From contig NZ_JAQFFK010000001.1 of the NCBI RefSeq assembly GCF_027594145.1, positions 1 to 64,000 of the forward strand: a DNA stretch of 64,000 nucleotides, read 5' to 3'. The notes beneath the pieces were generated by a model. That model made no database searches and was not told the DNA's origin. It saw nothing but the letters and a program-made list of their open reading frames with translations. Shown one piece after another: positions 24,126 to 64,000 of this stretch. How positions within the stretch are numbered: the first letter of the stretch is position 1; every line of letters starts with the position of its first letter. A program made the translations under genes and the position numbers. Source of the DNA: Methanococcoides alaskense (GTDB lineage Archaea > Halobacteriota > Methanosarcinia > Methanosarcinales > Methanosarcinaceae).

Positions 24126-24512
24126 TTATTTTGGTCCGGGAAGTTCCGGTCTTGATCCTGTGTGAGCAGAAGTGGTGGCATCTTCAATAAGATCCAGCTG
24201 TCCTTGCCTATATTGTGAAACCGTTTCCTCAACTGCGCCATTAATGCCTGTAAATACTTTGATCCCGGCTGCATTTAGCACTGATAATGCGTTTGGTCCC
24301 ATATTTCCTGTGAGAAGGGCATCAATGCCAAGGGTGGTCAATGCCTGTGCAGCCTTTATGCCTGCACCCCCATCTGCTAAGGGTCCCGGGTTCTCAAGAG
24401 CTTCAAAGGTCATGGTATCATCATCTACAATGACAAAATAAGGACATCTGCCAAAACGAGGGTCACACTGGCTGAAAAGGTCAGTTCCTCTGGATGTTAT
24501 GCATATTTTGAT
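24126..24512 (-). CDS. NifX/NifB-type protein (copy 3) with apparent AUC start
   Basis: The family homology runs through codons upstream of the first ATG (24411-24413): the frame reads KICITSRGTDLFSQCDPRFG and CPYFVIVDDDT before it. These match the normal N-terminus of the family, which begins MKI. The codon in the position of the initiator is ATC (24510-24512), preceded six bases earlier by SD GGTGA, and an in-frame TGA lies just upstream. Either AUC (or the adjacent AUU) initiates, or the gene has lost its start and makes a truncated product. Full length would be 128 residues, normal for the family. First gene of the minus-strand cluster. Confidence 0.75.
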   Translation of the reverse strand: MKICITSRGTDLFSQCDPRFGRCPYFVIVDDDTMTFEALENPGPLADGGAGIKAAQALTTLGIDALLTGNMGPNALSVLNAAGIKVFTGINGAVEETVSQYRQGQLDLIEDATTSAHTGSRPELPGPK

Positions 24513-24672
24513 AATTTCTCACCACTTTTATCCTAATGTATTATGCACATAAGTGAGAAATTATTTAATCTTATTGGAAAACACTTATATATTAATTCTC
24601 AATGGGCACAAAAAACTCTTCTTTTTTCAAACAGCGGATATTATTTATACAGATGAAGTATGTTTACTTCTC

Positions 24673-59875: not shown

Positions 59876-60553
59876 TTATCTGACCCCATCTGCGGTTATG
59901 GTGAATTCGCAGGTGGTTCCTTCCGGGCGGGATCGATGTTTCCATATCTTTGCTCTGCGTCTTCCCGTTCCGGTCTTCTCAAACTGAATTATTGTTTTCG
60001 AGATATGCTCAAGACTACTGCCGCCTATTGGTTTTAATGAATTTGATTTGATGTCTGAATAGACCTGATTGGTTATGACCACAACTATGTCGCGTTTTCG
60101 TGCGAGACTGTGGAGGAATCCTATCTGATTTGAGAGCTCTCTTCTGGTCCTTATGCTTGAATCCTCATCATCAAGTTCGAACCTATAATATGCTGTTGCA
60201 GAGTCAACAATAATGACCCCGACGTTCTCTGTGCTTATCTTCTCGGTTTCCCTGACCGCAGAATACTGCTCTTCAAAGCTATGGGGCTCAAAAATGATTA
60301 TGTCCTGGGCGATCTTTCTTGCGTTCTCGCCGGCTATCTGTTTGAATCGATCTGCAGAGAGGCCTTCGGTATCGATGAATATTGCTTTTTTCCCTTTCTT
60401 AACACATTCGATGGCAAGTTGCAGACAAATATTGGTCTTTCCGCTACCTGCTTCTCCGAATATCTGAGTAACGACCCCTGATTCGAAACCGCCTCCCAGG
60501 AGCTCATCTAGAGGCTTGCAGCTTGATGGTAACTGTTCTTTTATTGTCTTCAC
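59876..60553 (-). CDS. radB: DNA repair and recombination protein RadB
   Basis: RecA-family paralogue of 225 residues, lacking RadA's N-terminal domain. Walker A TQIFGEAGSGKTNICLQLA, Walker B VGVIIVDSATAYY, and the FPIGG-like KPIGGSSLEHIS loop. RadB binds DNA and modulates RadA and Hjc. ATG at 60551-60553; its promoter lies in the shared region with nrd. Confidence 0.95.
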   Translation of the reverse strand: MKTIKEQLPSSCKPLDELLGGGFESGVVTQIFGEAGSGKTNICLQLAIECVKKGKKAIFIDTEGLSADRFKQIAGENARKIAQDIIIFEPHSFEEQYSAVRETEKISTENVGVIIVDSATAYYRFELDDEDSSIRTRRELSNQIGFLHSLARKRDIVVVITNQVYSDIKSNSLKPIGGSSLEHISKTIIQFEKTGTGRRRAKIWKHRSRPEGTTCEFTITADGVR

Positions 60554-60657: not shown

Positions 60658-60773
60658 AACAAATATGGTTATCTATTCGATATTACATGTGGTAACAAAC
60701 ATGGTAATCAATAATTCAATTTTTTCATTATAATGATGAGTTATTCATGTATTCATTATCACATTTGTTACCA
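60658..60773. promoter_or_regulatory. Three copies of an operator-like motif between radB and nrd
   Basis: AACAAATATGGTTATC (60658-60673) and AACAAACATGGTAATC (60694-60709) are direct repeats 36 bp apart, and the reverse complement of 60754-60769 is a third, more diverged copy. TGGTAACAAA (60690-60699)/TTTGTTACCA (60764-60773) form a perfect inverted pair. They lie 55-170 bp before the predicted nrd TATA box (60829-60836). Confidence 0.5.
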
Positions 60774-60852
60774 GTTATGATCTATTAGTATCCAATCATG
60801 GGGGCAAAAAGCATTATTAAGTGAGAGGACTATAATGCTAATTTGCTCAAGT

Positions 60853-60937
60853 AGAGACCTTTCCCACATTATATGCGGGCTATTGGTGGCGTTTAATCAT
60901 TTAATGCCTTCATGGGGAATGGATGTGAAAGGTCTCT
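60853..60937 (+). ncRNA. Structured leader RNA upstream of nrdH (candidate riboregulator)
   Basis: Outer helix AGAGACCTTTC (60853-60863) pairs perfectly with GAAAGGTCTCT (60927-60937). Inside are CCCACAT/ATGCGGG (60863-60879), GGCGTT/AATGCC (60888-60908) and a small TTC/GAA stem, a multibranched fold. TATA at 60829-60836 places transcription start within a few bases of the outer stem. nrdH begins 35 bases after it. It is not a tRNA or known riboswitch that I recognise. Confidence 0.55.
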
Positions 60938-60972
60938 TGCTTACGTATTAAAATCTAATGGAAGGATGATCA

Positions 60973-61224
60973 ATGTCTGATATTATAATTTATACAACGG
61001 AAACATGCCCGAAATGCGTTCAATTGAAAAATGTATTGAAGTCCAACAACGTAGCTTTCACTGAAGCGGACATGTCAACTCCTGAGTCCCTTACAGAACT
61101 ACGCTTAAACGGTGTTTTCACTGTAACTGCTCCGGTATTACAGATAGATGATGACTTTCTTACGTATGAAGAGCTATTCAACAGTGATGGGGTCGATCTT
61201 GGATCACTGAAGAGTATATTATAA
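60973..61224 (+). CDS. Glutaredoxin-like NrdH protein
   Basis: Thioredoxin-fold protein of 83 residues with the CPKC redox pair in YTTETCPKCVQLKNVL and TAPVLQIDD with the cis-proline region. Such redoxins supply electrons to ribonucleotide reductase; archaeal class III enzymes of this type accept glutaredoxin/thioredoxin reductants rather than formate. SD AAGGATGATC before ATG. Precedes nrdD by 13 bases. Confidence 0.9.
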   Translation: MSDIIIYTTETCPKCVQLKNVLKSNNVAFTEADMSTPESLTELRLNGVFTVTAPVLQIDDDFLTYEELFNSDGVDLGSLKSIL

Positions 61225-61237
61225 GGGATGTGGTCAT

Positions 61238-63625
61238 GTGCAATCGGATACAAAAGCTATAGTTGATCCCGATAAGGGATTTGAGAACGGTGCAGTGGGA
61301 TCTGCACAGGATAAAGGGTCATTAGAGGCTACAATGATGCCACTTACAGAGCCACAGTCTTTGCAGCAGACTCTTGACGGTCATTTCATTTCGACCATGC
61401 CAAAGGTTCGTACCACTGATGGCCATATGGTGAACTGGGACCGCAACATCGTGGTCAATCAACTATTAAAAGAGACAACTCTTAGTGAGTGGTATCATAA
61501 CATTTCTTCAATTTCAAAAGATGAGGCACATGATATCGCAAAGGAAACGGAAAAGCGTATTCGTGGCATGAACATCAAGTTCCTCTCTGGTCCTCTTATC
61601 AGAGAACTTGTGAATATGATCCTGCTTGAACGTGGTCATCTTGAATGGCGTAATGTCTCTACAAGAGTAGGTTCACCTGTTTTCGATGCATGTGAGATCG
61701 ACCAAGGTTCAGGCTTTGAGGCCAATGAGAACGCCAACCTTCAGGAAAATGCGGAAACATCCCACAAGAAGAAGGCTGACAAGATCTCCAAGGAACAGTA
61801 TCTCCTATTGCTTCCTCCAAAGATAGCCGATCTTCACCTTAATGGTGATCTTCACATTCACGATCTTGAGTACTTTGGTACCCGTGCTTTCTGTCAGGAC
61901 TGGGACCTGAGGTATTTCTTCTACTATGGTCTGATGCCCGATGGATCAGGTGCAAAGGCAAGTGTTGCAGGTCCGGCAATGAAGGCCGAGGTCGCAATGT
62001 TGCACGCTGTCAAGGCTCTGGGAAGTGCCCAGACCAATTTTGCAGGCGGACAGGGATTCTACAATTTCCTGACTTTCTGTGCTCCGTTCTTCGAGGGCAA
62101 GCCCTACAAGGAGATCGAACAGTTGATGCAGATGTTCGTCTATGAGATGACACAGATGATGGTTGCCCGTGGCGGACAACTTGTGTTCTCATCGGTACAG
62201 CTATCTCCAGGTGTTCCAAAGATGTGGAGGGACAAGCCTGTTGTTTACAGGGGTCGTGTCTGGGATGGTACCAATGGTACCGACAAGCGTGTCTATGGTG
62301 ACTATGAACGTGAGGTAAGGCTGGGGTTCAAGGCAATGATGAACGTCATGCTCGAGGGCGATTACTGGGGCAAGCCGTTCAATTTCCCGAAACCTGAGAT
62401 CTCCATTGAACCGGATTTCATGGAAGAGGATGAGATGTTCAACCGTGCAAATCCGGAACTCCCAACCTATGATGAACTTTACACCATGACATTCGAACTG
62501 ACCGCAAAGTATGGTACTCCCTACTTTGATAATCAGCTTCCTGAATACCGTGGTGCTGGAGAAGGCATCTCCTGTTACCAGTGCTGTGCTTACCAGTTCT
62601 CAGCAAACGCAGATTCAGATTCAGATTTCGATGAGAAAATGTACTTCAATGAGGGAAAACATTTCTCAATGGGATCCTGGCAGGTAATTTCACTGAACTG
62701 TCCAAGAGCTGCATATCTGGCAGAGAACGATGATGAGAAACTGTTCTCTCACCTGAAACACCTCATGGATGAGGCCATGGAGATCTTCCAGACAAAGGTC
62801 AAATGGTTAAAGCCTATCATTGAAAATGGCAGGATGCCATTCGCAACCCAACAGCCAAAGGACCCTGTTACTGGTAAGAAAGGTGCGATAGCGGTCGATA
62901 TAGATTCACTGGTGTTCACCATTGGTGTTATTGGTATCAATGAAATGGTCCAATATCACACCGGTTCACAGATGCATGAATCCAGGGATGCTTTTAAGCT
63001 GGCTATCAGGGCAATGACCGAGATGGATATATATAGCAAGGAACTTTCCCAGAAATTTGGTATGGAGATAGCTCTTGCAAGGACACCTGCCGAGACTACC
63101 GGTCAGAGATTCTCTGTTTCCGATCTGCTTCATGAAGAGTTCAGGGACAAGGTTATCTCAGTCGTCAAGGGTGATGTAAAAGCAGCAGTTGAGGGTGTAA
63201 ATAATACTCATGACCTGCCCATCTATTACACCAATGGTACTCATGTGCCACCAGGAGCTGATGTTTCACTGGTCGACAGGATCAACATCGAACATGTGTT
63301 TTTCCCTATAGTGGACGGCGGAGATATCATGCATATCTGGATGGGTGAAGGTTCACCGGATGCTAAGGGTCTGAAAGATTTCGCTATGAACCTTGCGAAG
63401 AACACTCAACTAGGATATTTTGCCTTTACTAAGGATATGAGTGTTTGTATGGATGATTTCCATATGATGGCTGGCCTGAAAGATGTCTGTGAGAACTGTG
63501 GTTCTGATAACATCGAGCAGCTTTCAAGGGTCACCGGTTATATTCAGGCAGTGGGTGGCTGGAACGCTGCAAAGAAGCAGGAACTGGAAGACAGAAAACG
63601 CTACAATTCAGCCGATATGGTCTGA
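61238..63625 (+). CDS. nrdD: Anaerobic (class III) ribonucleoside-triphosphate reductase
   Basis: Glycyl-radical enzyme of 795 residues. N-terminal ATP-cone-like segment (about 50-145), central catalytic barrel with ISCYQCCAYQFS cysteines, a zinc site with CENCGSD near the end, and the radical glycine in RVTGYIQAVGGWN. Starts at GTG 61238 because the other ATG codons nearby are out of frame. Activated by NrdG, encoded next. The CYQC pattern resembles thioredoxin-dependent class III enzymes. Confidence 0.95.
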   Translation: MQSDTKAIVDPDKGFENGAVGSAQDKGSLEATMMPLTEPQSLQQTLDGHFISTMPKVRTTDGHMVNWDRNIVVNQLLKETTLSEWYHNISSISKDEAHDIAKETEKRIRGMNIKFLSGPLIRELVNMILLERGHLEWRNVSTRVGSPVFDACEIDQGSGFEANENANLQENAETSHKKKADKISKEQYLLLLPPKIADLHLNGDLHIHDLEYFGTRAFCQDWDLRYFFYYGLMPDGSGAKASVAGPAMKAEVAMLHAVKALGSAQTNFAGGQGFYNFLTFCAPFFEGKPYKEIEQLMQMFVYEMTQMMVARGGQLVFSSVQLSPGVPKMWRDKPVVYRGRVWDGTNGTDKRVYGDYEREVRLGFKAMMNVMLEGDYWGKPFNFPKPEISIEPDFMEEDEMFNRANPELPTYDELYTMTFELTAKYGTPYFDNQLPEYRGAGEGISCYQCCAYQFSANADSDSDFDEKMYFNEGKHFSMGSWQVISLNCPRAAYLAENDDEKLFSHLKHLMDEAMEIFQTKVKWLKPIIENGRMPFATQQPKDPVTGKKGAIAVDIDSLVFTIGVIGINEMVQYHTGSQMHESRDAFKLAIRAMTEMDIYSKELSQKFGMEIALARTPAETTGQRFSVSDLLHEEFRDKVISVVKGDVKAAVEGVNNTHDLPIYYTNGTHVPPGADVSLVDRINIEHVFFPIVDGGDIMHIWMGEGSPDAKGLKDFAMNLAKNTQLGYFAFTKDMSVCMDDFHMMAGLKDVCENCGSDNIEQLSRVTGYIQAVGGWNAAKKQELEDRKRYNSADMV

Positions 63626-63647: not shown

Positions 63648-64000
63648 ATGGATGTAAATTTTGGGGAGGTAATCCCCATATCAACCATTGACTGGCATGG
63701 AAAAGCGTCAGTCGTTCTTTTTTTACGTGGCTGCCCTTTCAGGTGTCCTTACTGTCATAACTATGAGATATTGACAGTTCCCGATATGGTCGATGTGAAA
63801 GAGCTTGAGAAAAAGATAGAGAATTCTCTTATTTTTGTAAGCAGTGTTGTATTTTCCGGTGGGGAACCACTGGCTCAGAAGAATGCAATTATGCATCTTG
63901 CTTCCTATGCAAAGAAAAAGAAGCTGTTCGTGGGTATCCATACGAATGGCTATTATCCTGATGTCGTGGAAGAATTGATGGATCTAGGTCTTGTGGACAA
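63648..64000 (+). CDS. nrdG: Anaerobic ribonucleotide reductase activating protein NrdG, 3' end outside window
   Basis: Radical SAM activase; 117 codons present. The cluster motif CPFRCPYC (CxxxCxxC) follows LFLRGC, then VFSGGEPLAQ and HTNGYYPDVV. It makes the glycyl radical on NrdD with SAM. The ATG at 63648-63650 lies 22 bases after the nrdD stop, and a GGGGAGG follows inside the frame. The remaining part lies beyond the right edge. Confidence 0.93.
   Translation, partial: MDVNFGEVIPISTIDWHGKASVVLFLRGCPFRCPYCHNYEILTVPDMVDVKELEKKIENSLIFVSSVVFSGGEPLAQKNAIMHLASYAKKKKLFVGIHTNGYYPDVVEELMDLGLVD

Follow-up and report, generated by a model that had tools for sequence, protein, structure and literature searches.

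To our knowledge, conserved structure has been described for few archaeal mRNA leaders, and the setting of ribonucleotide reductase levels in archaea has been little studied. In Mesoplasma, ribonucleotide reductase genes are preceded by a 2'-deoxyguanosine riboswitch, which resembles the nrdHDG leader described here in being a leader RNA ahead of a ribonucleotide reductase operon. The Mesoplasma element, however, is built on a purine-riboswitch core with conserved junction and loops, and nothing comparable is conserved in the nrdHDG leader. The archaeal L7Ae mRNA has a 5' leader fold that is bound by the L7Ae protein and regulates translation (PMC6298567), and as a folded leader of an archaeal mRNA it offers a protein-bound precedent. 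The L7Ae leader is a k-turn with a conserved sequence signature; no k-turn was identified by eye in the P1-P2 domain of the nrdHDG leader. Long 5' UTRs with a role in mRNA stability have been reported for mtaA and mtaC of a cold-adaptive methanogen (cited in PMC5378194); they come from the same broad methanogen group, concern other genes and are likened by description, not by sequence. Ribonucleotide reductase genes are also under control in bacterial nrd operons, where NrdR is described (PMC12176259, PMC12051234) as a transcriptional repressor acting on DNA, unlike the RNA leader considered here. The nrdHDG genes are described as forming an operon in M. mazei (PMC9694453). No nrd leader RNA in archaea was found in the literature searched, nor a published case of the known kind of structured cis-regulatory mRNA leader in this gene context.

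The window, that is the whole 64,000-nucleotide stretch of DNA analysed, is part of a Methanococcoides (g1) genome; among named organisms, M. seepicolus and M. vulcani are its closest relatives carrying the same nrdH. Between a RecA/RadB-like gene and nrdH lie, from 5' to 3', candidate operator half-sites, a BRE/TATA-like box, the predicted start and the leader. The features are as follows.

59876-60553, divergent from nrdHDG: gene for a RecA/RadB-like ATPase, named from its sequence.
60690-60709, no strand assigned: two TGRTAA(C/T)-type half-sites, TGGTAACAAACATGGTAATC, upstream of the promoter; probably a transcription factor operator and not part of the RNA.
60764-60773, no strand assigned: half-site TTTGTTACCA, probably of the same operator, conserved in the genus alignment.
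60806-60820, + strand: BRE/TATA-like promoter AAAAAGCATTATTAA, conserved in most Methanosarcinaceae genera and in outgroup families.
60842-60846, + strand: predicted transcription start (TTTRC), approximately 22-26 nt past the TATA-like box; TTTAC is conserved in other genera.
60853-60863, + strand: 5' strand of the outer helix P1, 11 perfect bp here.
60865-60868, + strand: 5' strand of P1b (CACA), following a 2-nt C bulge, from the genus alignment.
60884-60893, + strand: 5' arm of the inner hairpin P2, ending in GGCGUU; 9 of 10 bp form here, and a perfect 10 bp in genomes G002 and G009.
60888-60894, + strand: GGCGTTT, the local form of a TGYGTTTTT-like stretch, departing from the searched pattern (TGCG to GGCG).
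60903-60912, + strand: 3' arm of P2, on the same basis as the 5' arm.
60924-60927, + strand: 3' strand of P1b (UGUG), from the genus alignment.
60927-60937, + strand: 3' strand of P1, pairing perfectly with the 5' strand.
60960-60971, + strand: Shine-Dalgarno-like GGAAGGATGATC of nrdH, outside the P1 domain.
60973-61224, + strand: nrdH, an open reading frame for a glutaredoxin-like redoxin with its ATG at 60973; homologues occur in 110 of 112 family genomes.
61238-63625, + strand: nrdD, class III ribonucleotide reductase, an open reading frame assigned from sequence.
63648-64000, + strand, running off the window: nrdG, radical-SAM activase, an open reading frame assigned from sequence.

The TATA-like element CATTATTAA ends at 60820. 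In Methanolobus psychrophilus the BRE/TATA elements lie approximately 19-22 nt ahead of the measured transcription start (PMC5378194), and this spacing places the predicted +1 near 60840-60846. The initial annotation had put the fold exactly at the predicted start; it does occupy the 5' end of the predicted transcript, with P1 beginning some 8-11 nt downstream of the start. The BRE/TATA-like box keeps a constant distance to nrdH in most Methanosarcinaceae genera. Half-sites and palindromes related to those of the window, TGTTAYCANNNNTGRTAACA, also precede nrdH in further genera and in the order-level families f2, f4 and f5, and lie ahead of the nrdHDG promoter in most of the Methanosarcinales families seen (order-level loci L120-L138); one example is the palindrome GAGCATTTGTTATCAATATTGATAACAAATGCTC in G044 (L127). 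They are probably a candidate operator of an archaeal ribonucleotide reductase regulator, and when compared by eye the half-sites (TGTTAYCA) are unlike NrdR boxes. A search with the palindrome yielded 15 sites at up to 2 mismatches versus 4 for the control. A palindrome regulon was not borne out, as most of the ten sites inspected lay inside open reading frames and no nucleotide or replication gene stood out.

P1 is formed by the pairing of AGAGACCUUUC (60853-60863) with GAAAGGUCUCU (60927-60937), and 35 nt separate its end at 60937 from the ATG at 60973; the perfect 11-bp outer helix and its distance to nrdH are exactly as first annotated. G60927 may pair with either C60863 or C60865. The 85-nt domain has a minimum free energy of -28.8 kcal/mol with a z of -2.96, 2 of 200 shuffles being as good, and a z at or below this value is reached by 2.2% of 854 85-nt windows taken across the 64 kb. 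Ensemble probabilities are 0.9-1.0 for the inner pairs of P1, the end pairs being less certain, 0.2-0.6 for P1b in this genome and approximately 0.4-0.6 for most pairs of P2. Perfect 11-bp inverted repeats with loops of 20-100 nt occur at 2 places in the window versus 1.2 per shuffled window. The only other such repeat of at least 11 bp, of 12 bp, lies at 24511-24564 (ATAATTTCTCAC). Taken from a single sequence, the P1 fold is weak evidence and only mildly unusual. These modest statistics are what speaks for a hairpin formed by chance in AT-rich intergenic DNA, an explanation rendered highly improbable by the conservation and covariation found at the matching position in several genera and by the constant length of the leader. 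It is the comparative data across genomes and genera, set out below, that show the fold to be more than chance.

Two or three internal hairpins had also been proposed. P2 has counterparts in relatives, which supports this in part; another candidate hairpin, CCCRCA/UGCGGG, is in competition with the inner P1 pairs, and neither G007 nor G010 retains it. Masking of the nrdH ribosome-binding site by the domain was not seen in the predicted ensemble of this genome, where the site lies approximately 22 nt past P1 and is not sequestered. Accessibility of the site varies among the 13 leaders folded.

Within Methanococcoides, the outer helix is retained in 11 of 11 genomes. BLAST recovered the leader from 8 of the 10 other Methanococcoides genomes, and covariance model R2 detects it in all 11. 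In alignment A1 (11 genomes), where the structure comprises an outer helix of 10 pairs, a 2-nt bulge and an inner helix of 4 pairs, 92.9% of the P1 and P1b cells are paired versus 29-68% in slid controls. P1b is paired in all cells but one, and one of its pairs takes three forms (GU in 7 genomes, GC in 3 and AU in 1); since it is AU here and GC in close relatives, that pair differs on both sides. Pair changes in the genus are mostly AU/GU and CG/UG and nearly all one-sided. No excess of covariation was found in Methanococcoides alone, the score being reached by 367 of 500 letter shuffles, and the genus by itself is therefore no proof of the fold. In the second subclade a hairpin forms close to the position of P2, in another register.

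Upstream regions of nrdH were collected from 108 genomes of the family. We take g4 to be Methanolobus-like, g7 (with g11) Methanosarcina-like, g14 Methanomethylovorans-like and g8 Methanohalophilus. At the same place as in Methanococcoides, g4, g14, g3 and g7/g11 have a hairpin P2 enclosed by a helix P1, built from other sequences, and the sequence of P1 is different in each genus. Among the 26 genomes of g4, a helix P1a/P1b encloses a P2 that is 95.3% paired; over the whole structure 20 cells are changed on both sides, and the covariation score is reached by 0 of 500 shuffles. A 5' hairpin of g4, UUACCUU/AAGGUAA, was rejected as a switch partner of P1, being 69% paired with no excess of covariation. 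In the 33 genomes of g7/g11 the domain takes the form G(U/C)GGGG...CCCC(A/G)C around an inner hairpin; pairing amounts to 93.9%, and 4 of 500 shuffles reach its covariation score. Pairing amounts to 94% in the g3 domain and 85% in that of g14, versus 30-76% in slid controls for the g7/g11, g3 and g14 domains. Consensus folding against column shuffles yielded z values of -5.8 for g4, -5.5 for g14, -3.2 for g3 and -2.4 for g1, and of -2.2 for the anchored P1-P2 domain of g7/g11 (6 of 200 shuffles as good). The shuffle controls, here and above, retain the relatedness among sequences. No significant consensus fold against column shuffles was obtained in g8 and g12.

Conserved structure and covariation, by which a structured cis-regulatory leader is recognised, are thus present at the 5' end of a transcript whose start is predicted. 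The structured leader RNA with which, according to the initial annotation, the nrd transcript begins is conserved in homologous Methanosarcinaceae leaders, and the covariation that it proposed to look for in them is present, g4 being an example. Because no model crosses genera, the architecture common to them could partly be convergent or consist of loosely matched hairpins. Leaders of the Methanosarcina-like group are longer, at approximately 290-385 nt from the box. In g7 (e.g. L101, L096 and L089) a second conserved hairpin with a constant loop, GGGTTGGCTAAGGAATGGTACCC, stands just before the P1-P2 domain, and could be the recognised element there.

The end of the TATA box lies 151-158 nt from the nrdH start codon in g1, g3, g4, g5, g12, g13 and g14, with the exception of two g14 genomes at 165 nt. 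A TGYGTTTTT-like stretch, a pattern picked after inspection of the sequences, starts 66-69 nt past the box in these seven genera, though not in every genome. Such a stretch would also read as Cys/Tyr/His-Val-Phe, and a translated upstream reading frame, starting near TATA+55 or in genus-specific frames, might control nrdHDG as a leader peptide in two or three genera. The g3 genomes and most of g4 share the position of the start codon, and substitutions in the g3 frame are of a conservative kind (z = 2.5, 300 shuffles). An open frame, MIVDSFLSSLALLMVFIVTRMEYHV, is conserved in most g8 genomes (L093, L097, L092 and L098), its TGA stop overlapping the nrdH start region. Within g1 and g4, however, the frame is interrupted by one-base indels, no coding signal was found in any frame of g7/g11, g4 or g8, and the g14 value is a modest z of 2.3 from 4 sequences. 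The frame through the stretch lacks a start codon in g14, g5 and part of g1, and U-rich RNA reads Val/Phe/Leu by itself; a leader peptide is accordingly considered quite unlikely.

The sister families f2, f4 and f5 possess the same operator half-sites and promoter approximately 40-45 nt before nrdH, an interval too short to hold a leader. The nrdHDG leader is thus probably confined to Methanosarcinaceae, as far as these sequences indicate, and would have arisen after the family split from these sister families, which have the promoter without it. In two f3 genomes, G041 (L124) and G053 (L134), a putative tRNA-like sequence, GGGCGTGTGGCCTAGCCAGGA...TCACGTCC, is directly upstream of nrdH.

The g1 and g4 leader models each gave one strong match per genome, solely before nrdH. 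In the 112 family genomes, covariance models R1 and R2 recovered leaders of their own genus and otherwise chance-level matches only, and BLAST with the leader gave no match outside the genus. One marginal match of a model across genera was to g14 (E 0.23). Searched against Rfam 15, the leader of the window matched no family at the gathering threshold; at E up to 10 the matches were of chance level only, and 17 related loci gave none. These searches bear upon the suggestion that the fold has the look of an aptamer, as a metabolite riboswitch that alters nrdHDG expression on binding a nucleotide, dNTP, cofactor or redox compound. The gene context would suit nucleotide feedback, the compact domain lies just past the transcript start, and Mesoplasma provides the 2'-deoxyguanosine precedent before ribonucleotide reductase genes. 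Natural riboswitch aptamers, however, retain a sequence core over large distances, and here there is none: the models of one genus miss the leaders of every other genus of the same family, neither P1 nor P2 keeps its sequence from genus to genus, and the inner loops are not alike either. A riboswitch with a conserved core is thereby disfavoured, and with no Rfam match and a ribosome-binding site outside the fold, a metabolite riboswitch appears markedly improbable. Of the annotated choice between an aptamer and a protein-binding leader, it is the latter that fits better.

We put at approximately 50% the probability that 60853-60937 is a folded domain of an nrdHDG 5' leader of approximately 130 nt, acting as a cis-acting RNA control element in several genera of Methanosarcinaceae. 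Comparison of the sequences establishes that the predicted P1 encloses P2, that this architecture recurs in several genera with different sequences, that seven genera keep a near-fixed spacing from promoter to nrdH, and that the element occurs once per genome, ahead of nrdH. The shape of the leader, perhaps with the U-rich part of P2, would be recognised either by a protein or by the machinery of RNA decay or translation, and recognition would set the amount of NrdHDG made per messenger after transcription has started. Since the ribosome-binding site is unmasked and lies beyond P1, an effect upon mRNA life or upon access of a bound protein would be expected, and not direct masking. Alternatively, P1 may simply close the 5' end of the messenger and block 5'-3' decay by aRNase J, perhaps in a temperature-dependent manner, with no specific ligand or protein. 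The conservation of shape and not of sequence is consistent with such a stability element, which leaves the fixed leader length and the fixed position of the U-rich stretch unexplained and is regarded as doubtful. The preferred reading is of a cis-regulatory leader that evolves fast, is probably recognised by a protein or stability factor, and would set nrdHDG translation or mRNA life.

The nrdHDG leader is a concrete candidate that is genetically testable in Methanosarcina and Methanolobus. It also illustrates a type of RNA element, missed by standard covariance-model searches, that preserves its shape but exchanges its sequence from one genus to the next. It is unlikely, but conceivable, that the leader is a family-specific archaeal RNA reporting dNTP or redox state, through a ligand or through NrdD or NrdH binding to its own leader. 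If true, this would constitute RNA-level feedback on DNA-precursor synthesis in archaea.
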